Positions 110-10,234 of a stretch of 34,091 nt of DNA are shown here, in pieces. The translations under genes and the position numbers were made by a program. The stretch is taken from contig NZ_SMCQ01000030.1 of NCBI RefSeq assembly GCF_004343035.1, positions 1 through 34,091 of the forward strand. The letters run 5' to 3'. How positions within the stretch are numbered: the stretch's first letter is position 1; each line of letters starts with the position of its first letter. Below the pieces are notes generated by a model that searched no databases, was not told the DNA's origin, and saw nothing but the letters and a program-made list of their open reading frames with translations. This stretch comes from Longibaculum muris (GTDB lineage Bacteria > Bacillota_I > Bacilli_A > Erysipelotrichales > Coprobacillaceae).

Positions 110-139
110 AAAAAAAGCAAGATCATGATAGACCCTGCT
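110..139 (-). terminator. Terminator of the V-ATPase operon, overlapping the atpD stop
   Basis: On the minus strand a 9-bp stem (positions 131-139 with 116-124, two G-U pairs) encloses a 6-nt loop and is followed by a run of seven U (110-116). The stem begins inside the last codons of atpD, so the stop codon lies in the loop/right arm. No second hairpin of similar quality is seen in 1-109, which is AT-rich. Confidence 0.8.
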
Positions 140-767
140 CTCTTTTTAATCTTTCTTGTTTATCTTTTTGAGTTTTGATGACTTTTTGACGTGAGAATTC
201 TTCTCTATCTTTTTCATCTAATGCTTCACTAATAAACTTAACAGTTCTTTCAAATTCAGGAATAGAAATATTTTTAAGGGCATTTGCTCTCTTTTGTGTT
301 TTACGAATTGCATTAGCTAAACGATACACAGCATTTTCTATTTCTGCAAGTTTAACAGTTAATTCTTTAACATGGTAGAAGCATCGATAAGCATAGTCAA
401 CCTTGGAATTTGCTCTTTCAAAACCATAACCTAAACGAAGGGGTGTTTTTTCGTAAGTGACTTTAGGAATTTCCACTCCCATAACACTTCGATAAGTGAC
501 ACTAATTCCTTCATCAATAGGAACAGCTTCTACAATATCACTGATAATCCCTAAAGACATATTTGCTTCTTGTAATGCATAATATGCTTTTTGATAAGAA
601 TCAGTGATGTCATCTCTAATCATCTTGACATCGTCTAATAAACTCATCATTTCCTTGATTAGAACATTTCTTTTCTTATCCATTAAGTCATATCCTAGAT
701 AGGCAAGTTCTAGTGACTTTTTGGTTGCAATTAAATTCCCTTTAGTAGGAAAAACTTGATTAGCCAT
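123..767 (-). CDS. atpD: V/A-type ATPase subunit D (central rotor stalk)
   Basis: Subunit D is the long antiparallel coiled coil of the central stalk. It turns inside the A3B3 hexamer and passes torque to the membrane ring. The 214-residue product has the usual family length. It starts [20 protein letters not shown], the typical N-terminal helix, and has a long Lys/Glu/Arg-rich helical C-terminus (about 130-210). The start codon overlaps the end of atpB by 8 nt (ATGGCTAA) and no separate ribosome site is visible, so translation is probably coupled to atpB. It is the last gene of the operon and is followed directly by a terminator. Also called ntpD in enterococcal nomenclature. Confidence 0.95.
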
Positions 768-2208
768 TATTAACTGCGTCTTGTAGCTCTTTAATCATTG
801 AATCTTCTTGGAGACCAAATTGAGCTACAGCCTTTTCATGATCATAGAATTGTTCTAATACAGCGTTATCAATACGGTCTAATTCACCCTTAGGAAGAAC
901 TGATAATAATGTCCATCCTAAATCAAGTGTTTCTTCAATAGATCTATTTGTATTAAACCCTTGGTTAAGGAAATATCTTTCAAATAAACGTCCAAATTCC
1001 ATATAAGTTTTATCAACTGCTGATAATTCATCTTCACCAATAACTGAAGTCAATGATTTAACATCTTGTACATGCGCATAAGCTGCGAACAATTGGTTAG
1101 ATACAGCTGAATGGTCAGCTCTTGTATAACCTTCACCAATACCATCTTTCATCAAACGTGATAGTGATGGAAGAACACTAACTGGTGGATAAATACCCAT
1201 TGCATTCAACTCAGAATCAAGTGTAATTTGTCCTTCAGTAATATATCCAGTTAAGTCAGGAACTGGGTGAGTAATGTCATTGTTAGGCATTGTTAAAATT
1301 GGAATTTGTGTTACTGATCCTTTTGCAGATTTCGCAATACCAGCTCTTTCATATAATGAAGCTAAGTCAGAATATAAGTATCCTGGATAACCTTTACGTC
1401 CAGGAATTTCACCTTTACTTGATGAGAATTCACGTAAAGCTTCACAATAAGAAGTGACATCAGTATAAACAACCAAAACATGCATATCATGTTCATATGC
1501 TAAATATTCAGCAGCTGTTAATGCACATCTAGGTGTTAAAGTACGTTCGATGATTGGGTCATTTGATAAGTTCAAGAACATAACAACCCTTTGCATAACA
1601 CCAGCTTCTTCAAATGAACGTCTGAAATATTCAGCAACGTCATTTGTAACCCCCATTGCCGCAAAGACAACAGCGAATCCTGTTCCATCGTCATCAGCAA
1701 CTTTTGCTTGTTTAACGATTTGTACAGCTAATTGATTATGTGGTAAACCAGATCCAGAGAAGATTGGTAATTTTTGTCCACGAATCAATGTTGTTAAACA
1801 GTCAATAGATGAAATCCCAGTATTGATATAGTTTCTTGGATATACACGAGCAACTGGATTTAATGGTTGACCATTAATATCCATTGATTTCTCAGCATAA
1901 ATTTCACCTAATCCATCAATTGGTTTTCCAGCACCTGAGAACACACGTCCCAAGATTTCTTTAGATACTGGTAATTCCATTGGGTGACCTAATAATCTAG
2001 TTTTTGTATTGGCAAGAGATAAAGAGTTTGTTCCTTCAAAAACCTGAACAACAACTCTTTCTCCTTCAATTTGAACAATACGTCCTAAACGAGTTGAACC
2101 ATCTTTACATTGTAATTCGACCATTTCGTCATATGAAGCATCCTTAACATGATCTAATACGACTAATGAACCGTTAATTTCATTCAACCCTACATATTGA
2201 AGACTCAT
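760..2208 (-). CDS. atpB: V/A-type ATPase subunit B (regulatory, non-catalytic)
   Basis: Subunit B alternates with A in the soluble hexameric head and completes the nucleotide sites at the A-B interfaces. The 482-residue protein has the family length. It lacks a functional P-loop, as expected for B: the equivalent region reads [14 protein letters not shown]. Other B signatures visible are [19 protein letters not shown]-type sequence (here [18 protein letters not shown]) and [17 protein letters not shown]. The start is supported by AAAGGAGG eight bases upstream. It lies 14 nt downstream of atpA and overlaps atpD. Confidence 0.97.
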
Positions 2209-2222
2209 AACTTATTCCTCCT

Positions 2223-3974
2223 TTAGTCTATAGATGCAACAGCTTCATCGATTTCTTTATAATAATCATCAAATAAAGCTAAATTATTGTTAGGAACATC
2301 ATATTTCATTTTGATAACTCTATCAAAAATACCTGTTTCCAAAATTAAACGAATTGGTTTTCCAGCATTCACAACTTCTTTACCACGTTTATACAAGTAT
2401 AAGATAACTTCCATCATCTTTAATTGTTTTTCAAGTGGTACATAAGTATCATCTGGATGGAAAGCATTTTGTTGTAAATATCCAACACGGACTAATTTTG
2501 CAACTTCAATAATTAATTTTTGATCATCAGGTAAAACGTCAGATCCCATTAATTTAACGATTTCCATTAATTTTGTTTCTTCTGCAAGAATACTTGCTAA
2601 TTCTTGACGATCTCTTAAGAATTTAGGATCAACATTTTTATTAAACCATCTTTCAAGATCAGGAATATATTCACTATAACTTTGATTCCAGTTAATTGCA
2701 AAATAGTGACGTGCATAAGCTAAAGCTTTATCCAAAGCCCAGAATGTACGAACGAAACGTTTTGTATTTTGAGTTACTGGTTCAGAGAAGTCAGATCCTT
2801 GAGGAGAAACTGCTCCGATAATTGTAACAGAACCTTTTGTTCCATTTAAGTTATTCATATATCCAGCACGTTCATAGAATTGAGATAAACGTGATGGTAA
2901 ATAAGCAGGGAAACCTTCTTCAGCTGGCATTTCTTCCAAACGTCCAGAGATTTCACGCAATGCTTCTGCCCAACGTGAAGTTGAGTCAGCCATAATCGCA
3001 ACATGGTAACCCATATCACGATAATACTCAGCAAGTGTAACACCTGTATAAATAGAAGCTTCACGAGCCGCAACTGGCATGTTAGAAGTGTTAGCAATTA
3101 AGACAGTTCTATCAGTTAAAGGTTTATTTGACTTAGGGTCAATTAATTCTCTAAATTCTTCAAGAACTTGAGTCATTTCGTTACCACGTTCTCCACAACC
3201 AACATAAACAATAATATCAGCATCACACCATTTTGCAAGTTGGTGTTGAGTCATTGTTTTTCCAGTACCGAATCCACCAGGGATAGCAGCTGTTCCCCCT
3301 TTAGCAATTGGGAACAATGTATCAATAACACGTTGACCAGTAATCAGTGGCATAGAAATTGGTAAACGTTTTGTAACAGGTCTAGCTTGTTTAATTGGCC
3401 ATTTTTGTGTTAATGTACATTCAACAATTTTCCCATCTTCAGTTTCAATTTTCATAACCACATCATCAATTTTATATTGACCATTTGGTGCAGCTTCAAT
3501 AACTTTTCCTTTTGTATATGGTGAAACCATACACTTATGAGTAATTAAATCAGTTTCAGGGATAGTGGCATAAATATCTCCACCTTTCACTTGATCACCA
3601 ACTTTAGCAACCATTGTGACATCCCATAATTTTTCCTTATCAAGTGGGTCTACATGACTACCCGTAGGAATAAATGATCCAGATTGTTTAGCTATTTCTT
3701 CTAGGGGTCTTTCAATCCCATCAAAAATATTTCTTAGAATACCAGGACCAAGAGTTACAGAAATAGGTTGACCTGTACCAAAAACAGGTTCTCCTGGTTT
3801 TAATCCTGTTGTCGTTTCATAAACTTGAATTGTTGTGGCTTCTTTCTTAATGGAAATAACTTCACCAATTAATCTTGCATGACCAACATAAACCATTTCT
3901 AGCATTGAAAAGGCATCAGTATCTTTTACTGTAACAACGGGCCCATTGATTGAATAAATTACATTTTCATTCAC
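2223..3974 (-). CDS. atpA: V/A-type ATPase catalytic subunit A
   Basis: Subunit A is the catalytic subunit of the head and binds and hydrolyses (or makes) ATP. The 583-residue protein carries the A-specific non-homologous insertion (about 110-190), a P-loop GGFGTGKT at residues 233-240, the GERGNEM catalytic glutamate region (about 262-268) and the ADSTSRWAEALREISGRLEE segment. The P-loop has Gly where many A subunits have Pro (GPFGxGKT), a mild variant that should not abolish function. Translation probably starts at a GTG (3972-3974), seven bases after GGGGG; no ATG is placed as well. The gene sits between atpE and atpB. Confidence 0.97.
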   Translation of the reverse strand: MNENVIYSINGPVVTVKDTDAFSMLEMVYVGHARLIGEVISIKKEATTIQVYETTTGLKPGEPVFGTGQPISVTLGPGILRNIFDGIERPLEEIAKQSGSFIPTGSHVDPLDKEKLWDVTMVAKVGDQVKGGDIYATIPETDLITHKCMVSPYTKGKVIEAAPNGQYKIDDVVMKIETEDGKIVECTLTQKWPIKQARPVTKRLPISMPLITGQRVIDTLFPIAKGGTAAIPGGFGTGKTMTQHQLAKWCDADIIVYVGCGERGNEMTQVLEEFRELIDPKSNKPLTDRTVLIANTSNMPVAAREASIYTGVTLAEYYRDMGYHVAIMADSTSRWAEALREISGRLEEMPAEEGFPAYLPSRLSQFYERAGYMNNLNGTKGSVTIIGAVSPQGSDFSEPVTQNTKRFVRTFWALDKALAYARHYFAINWNQSYSEYIPDLERWFNKNVDPKFLRDRQELASILAEETKLMEIVKLMGSDVLPDDQKLIIEVAKLVRVGYLQQNAFHPDDTYVPLEKQLKMMEVILYLYKRGKEVVNAGKPIRLILETGIFDRVIKMKYDVPNNNLALFDDYYKEIDEAVASID

Positions 3975-3992: not shown

Positions 3993-4589
3993 TTATCTAA
4001 TAATTAATCCAGAGTTTTTATTAAACCATTCTTTTTGATTATTTAAAGCAAAATCTAATGTTTCATCAACTACTAAAGAAGATTCCTTATTTTCAATAAT
4101 AAATCCACCTATTGTAATATCATCACTAGCTTCAACATCAATATCTTGACCAAAAGCTTTCACTAAATCAGCTTTCATGGCTAAATCTTTAGCAGATACA
4201 TACATAATTGAATGACTATCCTTAAAATCATCAGCTACTTTTTTAATCTTTGATTCCATAAAAGATGCATAATCAGCACTCTTTGTAAAAGCCACTAATT
4301 CTTCATGTGCCTTTTCAAAAATAGCTTTAACATATTCATCTCTTTTTTCAATTAATTTCTTTGTTCTTTCAATATGACTTTCAGAAATTTCAGCAGAAGC
4401 ATTTGAACTCATTTCTTCTTCTTCTTGTTTAAGTTTTAAATCAGCATCTCTTTTTGCTTCAGCTCTCATAGACTCATAAGCTTCATCTTCAAGGGCCTTC
4501 ACTTCATCAAGAATAGCTTTTTCTTCATTCTTTGCTTGTCTTTCAATTTCATCTTTCATATAGAGAAATACTTGATCAATATTTTGCAT
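3993..4589 (-). CDS. atpE: V/A-type ATPase subunit E (peripheral stalk)
   Basis: Subunit E pairs with the H/G-type subunit to form the peripheral stalks that hold the head against rotation. The 198-residue product has a long, charged N-terminal helix (about 1-100, rich in Glu, Lys and Ala, including MRAEAKRDADLKLKQEEEEM) and a compact C-terminal domain containing DDITIGGFIIENKESSLVVD, typical of subunit E. A ribosome site AGGAGAG precedes the ATG. It lies between atpF and atpA. Low overall conservation is normal for this subunit, and the assignment rests on domain pattern plus operon position. Confidence 0.9.
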   Translation of the reverse strand: MQNIDQVFLYMKDEIERQAKNEEKAILDEVKALEDEAYESMRAEAKRDADLKLKQEEEEMSSNASAEISESHIERTKKLIEKRDEYVKAIFEKAHEELVAFTKSADYASFMESKIKKVADDFKDSHSIMYVSAKDLAMKADLVKAFGQDIDVEASDDITIGGFIIENKESSLVVDETLDFALNNQKEWFNKNSGLIIR

Positions 4590-4601: not shown

Positions 4602-4910
4602 CTATAGTTTCACACCAATTGCTTCAGATACATAACCATCAATCGTCTCTCCAATTTTAGAGTTTCCATGACGATCAGGTATCTCAGTAATTAATGGTTT
4701 TTGTTGTTTTAATTTAATTTCAGATATAATATCTGGACACATATCGACTAATTTTGTAGTGACTAAGATAATCGCAATAGATGAATCTTTCATCTTTGAT
4801 TGCAATACTTCAAGAAAATCCCTTCTTGTATGCACGACGACACCTTCAATGCCTACAAGTCTTAGTCCCATCAATGTATCAATATTATCGCTGATTAAGA
4901 AGAACTTCAT
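4602..4910 (-). CDS. atpF: V/A-type ATPase subunit F (central stalk)
   Basis: Subunit F binds subunit D in the rotor stalk. At 102 residues it matches the family length. The start MKFFLISDNIDTLMGLRLVGIEGVV is the classic F opening (a CheY-like fold with a Gly-Leu/Arg-Leu-Gly loop), and the later segment SIAIILVTTKLVD followed by PLITEIPDRHG is also characteristic. The ribosome site AAAGG is modest. It lies between the K (ring) gene and atpE. In Enterococcus the equivalent gene is ntpG, so names differ between schemes. Confidence 0.93.
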   Translation of the reverse strand: MKFFLISDNIDTLMGLRLVGIEGVVVHTRRDFLEVLQSKMKDSSIAIILVTTKLVDMCPDIISEIKLKQQKPLITEIPDRHGNSKIGETIDGYVSEAIGVKL

Positions 4911-4934: not shown

Positions 4935-5360
4935 TTATAAAGCGTTGATAATTAAGATAGAAATTAATAACCCGTAAATAGCAACCCCTTCACCTAAGGC
5001 AACGAAGATTAAGGCTTTACCGAAGTTATTGTCATTTTCAGAGAAAGCTCCAATAGCAGCAGGAGCAGCAGCAGCTACGGCAATACCAGCACCTAATGCA
5101 GAACATCCAGTTGATAAAGCAGCTGCGATGAATCCTAAACCTTGAGCTAATGTTCCAGCAATTGAAGCATCACCAGCGGCAAATGCAGAACCCATAGATA
5201 AACATAATGTTAAAGCAACAGCACCAAAGAATCCACCAACATGAGTTAATAAACGCCATTTTGCACTTTCTTTGCTTACTTTAGTAGTAAACATTTTCAC
5301 TAATGGTAATGATAATAAAACAACAGCAATAGCAGGTAAAATAAACATTAATAAATTCAT
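4935..5360 (-). CDS. atpK: V/A-type ATPase subunit K (membrane rotor ring)
   Basis: Subunit K forms the ion-carrying ring. The 141-residue protein has an N-terminal membrane helix (1-22), a second hydrophobic segment ending in SAFAAGDAS (43-63) that resembles a signal sequence, and then the conserved ring hairpin: a Gly/Ala-rich helix (72-103) and a helix with the ion-binding Glu124 in ALGEGVAIYGLL. Only this last hairpin carries a carboxylate. An alternative TTG start five codons upstream (5375) would sit within the ribosome site. The ATG at 5358-5360 lies seven bases after GGAGGAT and is preferred. H+ versus Na+ use cannot be decided safely from these residues. Confidence 0.93.
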   Translation of the reverse strand: MNLLMFILPAIAVVLLSLPLVKMFTTKVSKESAKWRLLTHVGGFFGAVALTLCLSMGSAFAAGDASIAGTLAQGLGFIAAALSTGCSALGAGIAVAAAAPAAIGAFSENDNNFGKALIFVALGEGVAIYGLLISILIINAL

Positions 5361-5387
5361 AATATAATCCTCCAAATATATATTTTT

Positions 5388-7313
5388 TTATCTTTCTTTA
5401 ATAGAAGTAAAAGGTTTTCCTTTACCTTCATAATAACGTGAGAACATTTCATAGAACTCAAGACGTAAAACTTGAATACCAACAATCATACCTTCCAAAC
5501 ACATAACGAAGATATTACCAAGAACAGCAACTAAAATATAACCAAAGTTAATAATTCCAGCTCCACCAGCAACCATTTCAGCTAGTGTATAAACAACCAT
5601 CATCATTCCGGCATGTGATAAAACGAATCCACCAACACGTAAAAATGACATTGTATTGGCAATAAATGTTAACATAACTTCAAATAATTCGAAGAATGAT
5701 TCAGTAAAGAAAGCTCCGAATCCATGAGGGAACATCTTTTCCCCTTCAAGTTTATAAGTTAATGGTTCTTTTAAGAAAATCATCACGACTGGCATTGCAA
5801 TAAGTAATGCAATATAAACTGGTCCACCTAATGGAATAGGGAAATCAACCAACATATTTGCAACTAATAATAAGACTGATACATAGAAAACAAGTCCTGC
5901 AACACCATTTTGAGAGAACAATAAATCTCCCCAATGTTTCTTTTTAATATTTAATATAATATTAAATACAATAGAAATAATAATTAAGACAACCCCTGTT
6001 GCAATAGCCGACATCAATAATGGCATTGTATTTTCAGGTTTCATTGGAAGGAACATTGGTTCCATGAAATGTTCAAACAACGCTTCACTACCAAAGATAG
6101 AACCAAAGACAAATCCAAAGATCGTACTTGAAATACCTAAACGCATTCCAACTGCCCCAAGTTGCATACCTTTCCATTTATAGAATAAATATCCAACTAA
6201 TGATAAAACAACACCTTGACCAATGTCACCAAACATCATACCAAATAAGAAGGTATAACTGATTGCAACTAAATTTGTTGGGTCAAAATCAGTATAAGAT
6301 GGAACACCATACATTTCAACGAACATTCTAAATGGTCTTGAGAACCAGTTGTTCTTTAATTTTGTAGGTGGTGTTAAACGTGAATCTCCCATTGCTGGTT
6401 TGATTTCTACATGTACATCATCTAATGTTTCAAAATCAGCTTTGATGGCTTTTGCTACTTTATCTTCAGCAAATCCATAAACAGCGGCATTTTGTCCAAA
6501 GACAACAACATATTTTTGAGCATCATATGTTTCATTCAATTTCGTAGAAACTGAATAAATATGATTCATTTCTTCTAAATTTTCAGCAAACAATTTTTCA
6601 ATTCTTCCATCAAGAACTTTCAAATAATCTCTTGCTGTATCATCTTCTTCTTTTAATGCATTTAAAGCATCTTGTGGTGTTCCATGAACGAATTCAGGAA
6701 TATGGATTCTTTCAAAGTATAAAGATGAGAAGATATTGTCAATTTCAGGAGCTTTACTTTGGGTTGTAATATAACCACAATAAGTATCTTTTGTTCCTTT
6801 ATGAAGAATCTTAAATAAGAATTGTTGTTCTCCATAATATTTTAATTTATCCAAATTAACGGTTGGAATTCTCCCAAAACGAACTTGTAAATACTTACAA
6901 TTAAACAAGCTATCAAAATCAATATCAGCATCAATCATATGTGATAATTGAGAAATTGTTGATTCATTTTCTTCAATCATCGTACTCAAGTCTTCTTTAA
7001 CCTTTTCAATCTTTGCTGCTTGTTCTAATACATTACAAAAGAATGTATCTGCTTGAATAATGTTAATTCTTGTACTGTCAACATTTTGACATTTTAAATT
7101 TAAATGATATTTATCTCTTGCTTCTTCCATACGAGCAATTAAATCAGCATACGGATTTTCACGATTTAAAACTGATAATCCTTGTACAGAATCAGCAAAT
7201 TTTGAAGCCGGTTCTGGATGAAAATCATCAAGATTGATAAGTTTCATTAACACAGCATCATATTGAGATGCTGGAAATTCAATTTCCAGAAGCTTCAATT
7301 TTGCTATTGCCAT
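5388..7313 (-). CDS. atpI: V/A-type ATPase subunit I (a-subunit, full length)
   Basis: Subunit I is the stator a-subunit. Its N-terminal cytoplasmic half binds the peripheral stalks and its C-terminal membrane half forms the two ion half-channels beside the K ring. This 641-residue protein has a soluble coiled-coil region (1-330) and about eight membrane helices (345-625). The first is in AISYTFLFGMMFGDIGQG. The essential ring-facing arginine is visible as Arg559 in SFLRVGGFVLSHAG, and the conserved last helix and tail include LRLEFYEMFSRYYEGKGKPF. It is the functional a-subunit of this operon. A shorter paralogue lies immediately upstream. Confidence 0.96.
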   Translation of the reverse strand: MAIAKLKLLEIEFPASQYDAVLMKLINLDDFHPEPASKFADSVQGLSVLNRENPYADLIARMEEARDKYHLNLKCQNVDSTRINIIQADTFFCNVLEQAAKIEKVKEDLSTMIEENESTISQLSHMIDADIDFDSLFNCKYLQVRFGRIPTVNLDKLKYYGEQQFLFKILHKGTKDTYCGYITTQSKAPEIDNIFSSLYFERIHIPEFVHGTPQDALNALKEEDDTARDYLKVLDGRIEKLFAENLEEMNHIYSVSTKLNETYDAQKYVVVFGQNAAVYGFAEDKVAKAIKADFETLDDVHVEIKPAMGDSRLTPPTKLKNNWFSRPFRMFVEMYGVPSYTDFDPTNLVAISYTFLFGMMFGDIGQGVVLSLVGYLFYKWKGMQLGAVGMRLGISSTIFGFVFGSIFGSEALFEHFMEPMFLPMKPENTMPLLMSAIATGVVLIIISIVFNIILNIKKKHWGDLLFSQNGVAGLVFYVSVLLLVANMLVDFPIPLGGPVYIALLIAMPVVMIFLKEPLTYKLEGEKMFPHGFGAFFTESFFELFEVMLTFIANTMSFLRVGGFVLSHAGMMMVVYTLAEMVAGGAGIINFGYILVAVLGNIFVMCLEGMIVGIQVLRLEFYEMFSRYYEGKGKPFTSIKER

Positions 7314-7328
7314 AAGTTTCTCCCTTCC

Positions 7329-8858
7329 TTAACGTGTTGATCTTTTTTTCATAATTGATTTAACGAAAATCAATACTAGGCAAGCAACGATTACAATAGC
7401 AAATGGCATGATTGGCAAGTTCATATGTGCCTCAAATGCACATCCCAAATAAACTAATACTGCATAAACAACAATCAAACCACAAATTCCCTTCATTGAG
7501 AGAACTCTTTCAACTGTAGAATTTTGTAAATACATCTTCTTAAATGCATTAATCGTATAAGTTCCAGCAATCAAAAGAACAAGACCATCAATAATTTTAT
7601 AAATTGTTGATAGTGGCAATGCTATTGCAGGATATAGACTGATTGTATAGAATACATCTCCATAAATAAGTCCTCCTAGCAAGGTTGCTATACCAAGAGA
7701 AAGAAATAATGGACCCATTTTTTTCTTTCTCATAAGAAGTCCAAGCAATGCTAACACAGCTCCAACTCCTAAATCCCCCAAAAAGATACCAAAGACAGCA
7801 TAGTATAGGAATGCAAATGCAATTGTTGTATCAATAACATCTGCTTGTTTCACTTTACTAACAGCTTCAAATGGTTTGACAATTTTTGCATTATGCACAA
7901 CAGTTGGTGCAACAACTTGCTGATGATCTAAGATATCAGCTGGTAATTGTTGATATTCCATACTTGATATTGATGAGAATCTTGCTTTAAATTCATCAAC
8001 AATACGCGTTGGAAGGAAACCATAAATTGCACATTTACTCTGATAATCTACAACAAAGACTTTATATGCTTCAATTCTTTGTAAGAAAGAAGCGGTTGAA
8101 TAAAGTTTTAATAAATCAACTTTGTTAGTTTCTCTTAAAATTGTCATTTTTTGATCCATACGCAAGATATATTCTTGCATTGCACGAATCTCATCATCTA
8201 ATTCCTTCTTTGCATCATCTAACTTACCATGCACAAATGAAGGAATTTCAATTTCTTCAAACCCTAACGCTTGGAAGATGTTATCAACTTCTAACAATAA
8301 GTTATTCGTTACAATATAACAACACCAAACATAATTGTGATCTTCACCTAATTTATTGAATATAAATGGTCGACCTTCATAATACTTAATCTTATCAAGA
8401 TTTTGTCTTTTAAAGCGTCCAAATCTTGCTTTCATATATTGACTCTCAGCTAATTGATCTAAATTAACTTCTGATAAAGTCAAACGATTTAACATTTCTA
8501 ATGTTTTTTCATTTTCTTCTTTTTCTTGAATCAATTGATCTTGAACATCTTTAATCTTTTTAATTTCTTCTTCCATTTCTTTAAGATAAGCATCATTCTT
8601 ATCATAATTTAAAGAATAGTCAGGAGACAAATCTCGATTTAAATCTAACTTTATATCAGATGCAATCTGAATCAAACGATCTAACATCTTTGTATAAACA
8701 TTGTCTTCTTGTAAAGCATGTACACCTTTGACGTTATTGACAATCTTTGAAGCAGATTGAGGATAAAAGTACTTTGAATCTTTAAGTTTAAATAAAACCT
8801 GATCTAAATCTTGACGATCAAAAGTCATATTTAACAATACCATTTCTTCTATAGCCAT
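7329..8858 (-). CDS. Truncated second subunit I paralogue lacking the channel arginine
   Basis: A 509-residue protein clearly homologous to the neighbouring subunit I. Shared landmarks include MAI at the start, SASKIVNNVKGV against PASKFADSVQGL, KARFGRFKRQNLDKIKYY against QVRFGRIPTVNLDKLKYY, and EIPSFVHG against HIPEFVHG. The soluble half (1-335) is complete, with a charged coiled coil near 90-125. The membrane half has roughly five or six helices (343-500), beginning AFAFLYYAVFGIFLGDLGVG, and then stops at KSIMKKRSTR. The two final helices of subunit I, with the FLRVG arginine and the FYEMFSR tail, are absent. It ends at its own stop codon 15 nt before atpI, with good ribosome sites for both genes and no frame damage, so it is unlikely to be decay debris. 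It cannot by itself form an ion path. A structural, assembly or regulatory role is an inference. Confidence 0.88.
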   Translation of the reverse strand: MAIEEMVLLNMTFDRQDLDQVLFKLKDSKYFYPQSASKIVNNVKGVHALQEDNVYTKMLDRLIQIASDIKLDLNRDLSPDYSLNYDKNDAYLKEMEEEIKKIKDVQDQLIQEKEENEKTLEMLNRLTLSEVNLDQLAESQYMKARFGRFKRQNLDKIKYYEGRPFIFNKLGEDHNYVWCCYIVTNNLLLEVDNIFQALGFEEIEIPSFVHGKLDDAKKELDDEIRAMQEYILRMDQKMTILRETNKVDLLKLYSTASFLQRIEAYKVFVVDYQSKCAIYGFLPTRIVDEFKARFSSISSMEYQQLPADILDHQQVVAPTVVHNAKIVKPFEAVSKVKQADVIDTTIAFAFLYYAVFGIFLGDLGVGAVLALLGLLMRKKKMGPLFLSLGIATLLGGLIYGDVFYTISLYPAIALPLSTIYKIIDGLVLLIAGTYTINAFKKMYLQNSTVERVLSMKGICGLIVVYAVLVYLGCAFEAHMNLPIMPFAIVIVACLVLIFVKSIMKKRSTR

Positions 8859-8869
8859 AAAATTACCCC

Positions 8870-9907
8870 CTAATAGATTAACATCGATTCGATTTGACTC
8901 GGTGCCTCTCCATATCTTAAACCTTCGATAATATGTTTAAGATTATCAATTTCTACTTGATATACAATTTTATACGTCATATATACCAAAGCACTATCAG
9001 TTGAAAAACGCATAAAGCGTTTAGCTAAATGATATCTAATTTTCTCTGTATAATATTCTATATAGACAAATTCATGATCATCTACATATAACTTATAAGG
9101 AGATTCAGCAAGTTTCTTTAACAATTCGCTTGCATCTTTGGTTTCAATCAATTCATCCATAACACTTTTAGGAATACGACTGTATTCAGTAAAAAGGGTT
9201 TCTCTGATTTGATCTGGTGACGCATTAAAATATTTCTTTAAACGATATATCTTTGTAATATTTTGTAACTCTATAGAGGTATTGATCATTGTTAATAAAT
9301 CTTTACGTTTTTTTCCTTTAAACAATTTATTGACTGTATCAACATACTCTGCGTAATAAATATGTTTTAATTCTAATTCTAACATATTAGAATCAAGTGG
9401 TTTATCATCTTCTGGTTTAAATTTAAGTAATGCATTATAATACTTTGTTCCTCTTAAAACGATTAACAAACTATCATAATCATTAATTGCTAATAAACCA
9501 TACAAATCAAAACTTGCATATTTATTTAAATAGTCGGGGATTTCTATTTCATATCCAGTGTAATAATCTGAATCAATTAATCTTGCTTTTGTTAAAATTA
9601 ATTGTATTTCTAATTCTGTTACACCTAATCGATAGAATTCCAATTCTTTTTTTGAAGCAAATCTCATTAATCGATCTAATCTTAAGAAGATTTCCTTATT
9701 TAATAAAGCTTCTAATTGTCCACGGTGAATATTCACTTCTTTTATATCAGAAAGAATTTCACTATAGGCAGTATCACTCTTGAGATAAGCGACCAAATCA
9801 TTAATACTTCTTCTTTTTAATAGTTCTTCGTAATTCTGCTCTGTTAACCTACGTGAATACATAGCTCTTGCTTTAGCTAGAATCGCATTTGATGAAAAAG
9901 AACTCAT
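8870..9907 (-). CDS. atpC: V/A-type ATPase subunit C (stalk-ring connector)
   Basis: Subunit C (eukaryotic d homologue) is the funnel-shaped cap joining the central stalk to the membrane ring. The 345-residue, largely helical protein begins with NAILAKARAMYSRRLTEQNYEELL, matching the family's opening in which arginine/tyrosine-rich helices follow a short N-terminus, and contains repeated helical blocks of the three-fold C fold. AGGAGAGGTGAG precedes the ATG. It is the second gene of the operon, between the H-type stalk gene and the truncated subunit I. Confidence 0.93.
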   Translation of the reverse strand: MSSFSSNAILAKARAMYSRRLTEQNYEELLKRRSINDLVAYLKSDTAYSEILSDIKEVNIHRGQLEALLNKEIFLRLDRLMRFASKKELEFYRLGVTELEIQLILTKARLIDSDYYTGYEIEIPDYLNKYASFDLYGLLAINDYDSLLIVLRGTKYYNALLKFKPEDDKPLDSNMLELELKHIYYAEYVDTVNKLFKGKKRKDLLTMINTSIELQNITKIYRLKKYFNASPDQIRETLFTEYSRIPKSVMDELIETKDASELLKKLAESPYKLYVDDHEFVYIEYYTEKIRYHLAKRFMRFSTDSALVYMTYKIVYQVEIDNLKHIIEGLRYGEAPSQIESMLIY

Positions 9908-9922
9908 ACGCTCACCTCTCCT

Positions 9923-10234
9923 CTAAATTTCTTTACAACGACTAACAATGGTAGAAACCCATTCATCTTTATTCTTCTCGTAAAGACTTGAGAGTTGGTT
10001 CAGTGATTCTTTGTACTCTTGTTCATTTTTGGCTTTTGTTTCTTGAATCTGTGCTTCTAACTCTTTTTTATGAGCATCAACTTTAACTTGATATTCTTTT
10101 ACAAAAGAGTCATAGATTTCTTTTTTCTTAGCACTCATACTAGATTGAACATCTTGCTTTTTCTTGCGTGCTTCTTCAACCTTTTGGGAGCACTCTAAAT
10201 CTACTGCAACAATATCCTGAATAATCTTGTCCAA
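9923..10234 (-). CDS. V/A-type ATPase peripheral-stalk subunit (H/G type)
   Basis: First gene of the operon. It encodes a 103-residue, almost wholly helical, Lys/Glu/Gln-rich protein with no membrane segment, consistent with the partner of subunit E in the peripheral stalk (eukaryotic G; NtpF in Enterococcus; AhaH in archaea). Such proteins have little sequence identity, so the call rests on size, coiled-coil composition and position. The start is a TTG (10232-10234) placed six bases after GGAGGG; no in-frame ATG is near the N-terminus. A non-ATG start on the lead gene could hold down stalk production relative to the other subunits. Confidence 0.8.
   Translation of the reverse strand: MDKIIQDIVAVDLECSQKVEEARKKKQDVQSSMSAKKKEIYDSFVKEYQVKVDAHKKELEAQIQETKAKNEQEYKESLNQLSSLYEKNKDEWVSTIVSRCKEI

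Follow-up and report, generated by a model that had tools for sequence, protein, structure and literature searches.

Prokaryotic V/A-ATPases are taught as two-stalk enzymes with one subunit I, and their eukaryotic counterparts as three-stalk enzymes with a collar subunit C. The locus described here poses the question of what a second, shorter subunit I might contribute to a bacterial pump that already encodes an intact one. The window, by which we mean the whole stretch of 34,091 nucleotides analyzed (Longibaculum muris, contig NZ_SMCQ01000030.1), contains a V/A-ATPase operon that is complete and lies on the minus strand, in the order G-position protein, C, Is, I, K, F, E, A, B and D, where Is denotes the short subunit-I paralogue. 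The first gene (9923..10234) encodes a 103-residue coiled-coil protein at the position of the G/H stalk subunit, a first-gene place that is conserved in related operons; the Pfam search gave no match for this protein. It is followed by subunit C, the d-type rotor cap (8870..9907; PF01992, 166 bits), Is (7329..8858) and the full subunit I, or subunit a (5388..7313; PF01496, 90 bits). Further downstream are subunit K of the c ring (4935..5375; PF00137), subunit F (4602..4910; PF01990), the peripheral-stalk subunit E (3993..4589; PF01991), two ORFs recurring in related operons that we take from established family knowledge to be subunits A (2223..3974) and B (760..2208), and an ORF at the same place as the D homologue of related operons (subunit D, 123..767). 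The 146-residue subunit K has a long hydrophobic N-terminal extension, the PF00137 match covering residues 83–142 only, and this form recurs in related operons. A second V-ATPase system in the genome was rejected, because a single subunit E gene was found in the whole genome with PF01991. The genome also has a gene for the F-type ATP synthase a subunit (G000, contig C17:44288-44896), hence the organism probably runs both F- and V/A-type rotary ATPases.

The two subunit I genes are clean and lie side by side, as described in an earlier note made from the sequence of this locus. Both are intact ORFs with an ATG start and a purine-rich Shine-Dalgarno sequence, which is GGGGG for Is (8866..8870) and GGAAGGGAG for the full copy (7320..7328), also on the minus strand. 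The encoded proteins, of 509 and 641 residues, respectively, share 28% identity, with residues 1–500 of Is aligned to residues 1–515 of full I at an E-value of 5e-65. Is starts 11 nt past the stop codon of subunit C, and its own stop codon is 15 nt ahead of the start of full I. A frameshift near 7329-7345 that removed a longer C-terminus, which the earlier note had considered, is excluded by this 15-nt spacing, together with the fact that the intact Is of every relative stops before TM7. A promoter and terminator scan gave counts at chance level, with no sign of an internal promoter for Is.

Profile databases miss the short copy: no Pfam family matched it at E ≤ 0.001, and the NCBIfam subunit I models matched it at an E-value of 3e-18, far under the model cut-offs. 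The AlphaFold2 models of Is and full I, with a mean pLDDT of 88.7 and 75.7, respectively, have an identical order of elements up to Is residue 508, beyond which full I has two extra long helices (residues 532–582 and 590–627) that are absent from Is. In the Is model, the cytosolic arm (residues 1–340; 7839..8858, minus strand) consists of a proximal lobe, a coiled coil, a distal lobe (residues 127–212; 8223..8480, minus strand) and a linker, with the predicted secondary-structure elements E6-14/H15-26, H85-126, E142-H197 in the distal lobe, H213-268 and E269-306. The membrane part (residues 341–509; 7332..7838, minus strand), defined by the predicted helices and hydropathy, has six helices (residues 345–358, 363–375, 382–399, 418–444, 458–476 and 484–508), in line with the five or six expected from sequence. 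Structural similarity search showed that the Is model resembles subunit I of Thermus thermophilus (6r0z_N, residues 2–547), with a Z-score of 17.8 and a Foldseek E-value of 1.2e-17, and the cytosolic domain of subunit I (3rrk), with a Z-score of 11.8 over residues 6–305. A search of a viral structure library returned nothing significant. Judged from these models, Is retains the two-lobed arm of subunit I in full.

An HMM alignment pairs full I with Enterococcus hirae NtpI (8wci_P) along its length. By residue counting in this alignment, E. hirae R573 (SYTRLM) stands opposite R559 of full I (SFLRVGG; codon at 5637..5639, minus strand), and R629 (ARLQYVEFF) opposite R617 (VLRLEFYEMF; codon at 5463..5465, minus strand). 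We take the two E. hirae residues to be the channel arginines; R559 and R617 are invariant across 22 full I copies. As R559 and R617 sit on TM7-TM8, beyond the end of Is, the short copy lacks both of them. The channel-bearing helices are thus missing from Is, as had been proposed, but the single essential arginine of that proposal gives way to two. Altogether, Is comprises the cytosolic arm and TM1-6, minus TM7-TM8.

Such a gene might have been peculiar to one strain or crippled in close relatives, two outcomes that the earlier note had named as fatal to its reading. Instead, of the 43 genomes of the window's family (f1), to which Candidatus Stoquefichus massiliensis belongs, 38 carry Is, as do 15 of its 20 genera, and in most of the family the gene keeps its place in the operon, in the order C-Is-I-K. 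Scanning contigs with Is yielded two distant I genes and a single close relative, Candidatus Stoquefichus massiliensis (88%). The f1 copies are either about 495–517 residues long, with six TM helices in the model from the window, or 435–454 residues long, with two or three hydropathy peaks; one genome (G018) has a soluble form of 315 residues. Leaving aside copies interrupted by a contig end or a draft break, Is is intact in all f1 carriers except G001, in which a frameshift splits the gene (L036:9077-9101) and a poly-A run has one base fewer than that of the genus-mate G002. Sequencing errors are often of this kind, and the break in G001 is either such an error or a slippage site; its genus-mates have intact copies. 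Elsewhere, the full subunit I of G022 is split into ORFs of 470 and 179 residues (L047:7349-7382), indicating that single breaks in draft genomes strike I as well as Is. Open frames of 1088 residues pointed to an Is-I fusion, which was rejected since a stop codon separates the genes, as shown for G036.

Three f1 genomes (G011, G030 and G031) carry Is outside the V operon, adjoining shikimate-pathway genes (L042:4039-5349, L065:8029-9336 and L052:7004-8311), with C directly followed by I in the operon itself; the orphan Is is still intact in all three. Four others (G007, G009, G028 and G029) have intact V operons and no Is, which was probably lost. The absence of Is from these four intact operons indicates that it is dispensable, and hence accessory. 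The C–I gap of G028 (L051:2461-2601) is 141 nt, longer than in other operons, and one of its frames reads DNAKIVNLF, similar to HNAKIVKPF of the window Is, which is possibly a remnant of a deleted Is and possibly chance. Where a close V-type I occurs in the sister family f2, the genome has just one I, some 640–655 residues long, and there is no short copy among the matches listed. A phylum-wide profile scan, which covers V-ATPases within the reach of the profile, gave matches only in the five families f1, f2, f11, f15 and f22. That a bacterial V/A operon usually has one subunit I, as the earlier note had it, holds for most of these relatives.

A different kind of short copy, of 320–341 residues and with no TM segment, occurs in two further families of Bacilli (f22 and f11), in at least 13 genomes. 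The f22 carriers (G454, G395, G615, G537, G525, G638, G639, G643 and G644) have the order C-Is-I wherever the neighbor genes are on the contig. Among the f11 carriers, the gene is found in C-Is-I-K in G452 and in G-Is-C-I in G667, G671 and G672. These soluble-only copies stop at the boundary between arm and membrane part, just past an RLxPPKKxK-like segment, and have basic tails. One further candidate, L144 of G668, turned out to be a full I split by a frameshift. The V operon of G605 (L076) has a 79-residue subunit C fragment and a truncated subunit I, which looks like decay or an error of assembly.

A tree of the arm alone, comprising 79 rows, placed the 19 membrane-type Is of f1 in one clade (support of 100/100) that is sister to the full copies of the same family (99/95), which points to a single duplication in the ancestor of the family. 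The soluble-only copies cluster with the full I of their own lineages, except for the long-branched G452 copy, which falls among the short copies of f22; the rows of G452 and G018 have long branches, and their placement is unsure. The supported branches force at least five changes, and a single origin of all short copies was rejected (p-AU of 8e-13), also when the two long rows were left out. Moreover, the two insertion positions in the operon support separate duplication events. Alternatively, gene conversion could also pull short and full copies together in the tree. Taken together, the sequences indicate that the cytosolic arm of one subunit has been duplicated repeatedly in Bacilli.

The dN/dS ratios, calculated by the Nei-Gojobori method for the window against its nearest relatives, are 0.155–0.189 for Is versus 0.129–0.146 for full I. 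Within Is, the arm (0.159) and the membrane part (0.145) are similar, and the orphan pair, from two of the three genomes with orphan copies, has a value of 0.076. Hence Is is under purifying selection in arm and membrane part alike, consistent with the earlier claim that the short copy is selected rather than decaying. It is less conserved than I everywhere, relative to I the least at the linker and after TM3, and evolves about twice as fast (mean distance of 2.14 versus 1.07). Seven of the eight columns invariant over 60 short and full sequences fall in the distal lobe, and R145, G147, Y181, D192, F200, P206 and G211 (numbering of the window Is) are identical in all 60 aligned sequences. In a mirror-tree test, the residuals link Is with full I (partial r of 0.46), compared to −0.16 for E and 0.16 for the G-position protein, which is weak evidence that the partner is full I rather than E or the G-position protein.

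What could a conserved arm do without a channel? The arm of Thermus subunit a has two globular lobes, each of which binds one EG stalk (PMC7367684). Prokaryotic enzymes have two stalks on I, whereas in eukaryotes a third stalk is held by subunit C (PMC6131620). In addition, the kidney V-ATPase can take an extra C subunit that bridges stalks 1 and 3 (PMC9263379), which indicates that a spare collar site can exist. The independent origins of the soluble-only copies suggest that the stalk-binding arm is the likely functional part, and since the arm is kept across independent events while the membrane part is optional, we infer a collar job, namely holding or bridging EG stalks; its presence in the complex, its partner and its mechanism are part of the same inference. 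Accordingly worded as a model, Is would be an accessory collar (stator) subunit of the V/A-ATPase that binds the EG peripheral stalks, a proposal to which we give about an even chance. Its lobes would hold the foot of the EG stalks, as the a_sol lobes do in Thermus. With its two stalks, the single bacterial I leaves the third A/B interface free, and Is might anchor a further, third EG stalk there, or alternatively bridge two EG stalks. Either way, it could work like eukaryotic subunit C, providing a stiffer stator or an adjustable V1-Vo attachment. In the window's family, TM1-6 would tether Is in the membrane without touching the c-ring, and in the other families the soluble-only Is would be held by the stalks alone. 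The operon position, the purifying selection, the intact orphans, the repeated soluble-only copies, the a_sol fold and the invariant distal lobe speak for this collar model. The mirror-tree result, which does not favor E or the G-position protein, lowers our confidence in it, and the faster evolution of Is relative to I and its dispensability also count against the model.

The same arm also has a second known contact. In isolated Thermus Vo, contacts between the subunit a arm and d bring the rotor to a halt (PMC7367684), hence retention of the arm is no proof of EG binding. Is might therefore be a regulatory brake, with an arm that attaches to free Vo or to the rotor cap (subunit C, d) and blocks rotation whenever V1 is off or ATP runs short. 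The soluble arm would be enough for this role, Is adjoins the C gene in most operons, and an accessory, fast-evolving protein would suit it. However, the mirror-tree residual of Is with subunit C is just 0.185 and drops to about 0 after controlling for full I; in addition, full I has the same arm and can already brake, and co-translation with the pump would suggest a stoichiometric over a conditional supply. We thus consider a brake rather unlikely. A stator/collar or d-binding role fits better than an inhibitor in the membrane seat of subunit a, because a soluble-only copy could not occupy that seat.

Being unable to pump without a channel, Is could instead be an assembly factor, a scaffold or placeholder for the EG stalks or nascent full I that is absent from the finished pump. 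Its covariation is strongest with full I, its gene is directly ahead of I, and it is dispensable in some genomes. Yet the repeated origin of the same truncated form and the retention of orphans do not single out assembly, and to our knowledge no V-ATPase assembly factor is an a-subunit paralogue, which counts against this reading and makes it unlikely. The orphan loci beside the shikimate genes, along with the selection on TM1-6 in the window's branch, would also suit an alternative subunit a in an atypical second complex, or a membrane function outside the pump itself, such as linking two pumps. This is quite improbable, given the one E gene in the genome and the one V operon at the locus, the missing channel arginines, the location of most Is copies in the V operon, and the soluble-only versions that have no membrane part. 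Finally, Is could be a dead remnant left by a tandem duplication, or an artifact of a frameshift or of assembly. This reading could appeal to the frameshifted Is of G001 and to the genomes missing Is, but it is hardly credible, as the break in G001 involves a single base of a poly-A run, Is is intact in other carriers apart from contig-end and draft breaks, its dN/dS is 0.08–0.19, it forms one well-supported clade co-inherited with I, and its conservation across genera contradicts such a reading on the sequence evidence.

Returning to the collar model, the repeated separate origins of the channel-less I copies, which were kept intact, suggest that these copies, which many gut-type Bacilli carry, are probably an additional and so far undescribed component of the pump. 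The open-licence literature that we searched gave no description of a second or truncated bacterial subunit I, and given that a channel-less I is conserved in Bacilli and evolved there repeatedly, some bacterial pumps probably have an undescribed subunit. The more specific proposal, that Bacilli repeatedly made a dedicated extra collar subunit from the subunit I arm, with a third or a bridged stalk, is tentative, and we lean somewhat against it. With their several origins, their three sizes and their loss from some operons that are otherwise intact, these copies offer a natural experiment on the origins of collar subunits.

Compared to known systems, Is is closest to subunit I of the V/A-ATPases of T. 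thermophilus and E. hirae (NtpI), to which it is homologous throughout, sharing the two-lobed arm, TM1-6 and the operon. It differs from them in lacking TM7-TM8 and the arginines, in being a second gene beside an intact I, and in lying below the reach of Pfam. The eukaryotic a isoforms (Vph1/Stv1, a1-a4) are, like Is and I, paralogues of one subunit within one organism; however, they are full-length, channel-bearing proteins that substitute for each other, whereas Is cannot pump. The b and b' subunits of some F-ATPases are a duplicated stator subunit with labor divided within one rotary ATPase, but belong to another protein family and another ATPase type. The eukaryotic collar subunit C (Vma5), for which we know of no prokaryotic homologue, would share with Is the role of a non-channel accessory collar subunit, in which two globular ends and a coiled coil hold the peripheral stalks. 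The Is model weakly matches it (1u7l and others; Foldseek E-values of 3.5e-7 to 4e-5, TM-score of about 0.2). A resemblance specific to Is was ruled out, as full I matches Vma5 too, and the match is thus a property of the a_sol fold. Sequence searches gave no sign of kinship to subunit C (no Pfam match and no C chains among the PDB sequence matches), and the window Is differs from Vma5 in its six membrane helices. If the model is true, an extra collar derived from the arm of subunit I would be a repeated parallel to the rise of the eukaryote-like subunit-C position.
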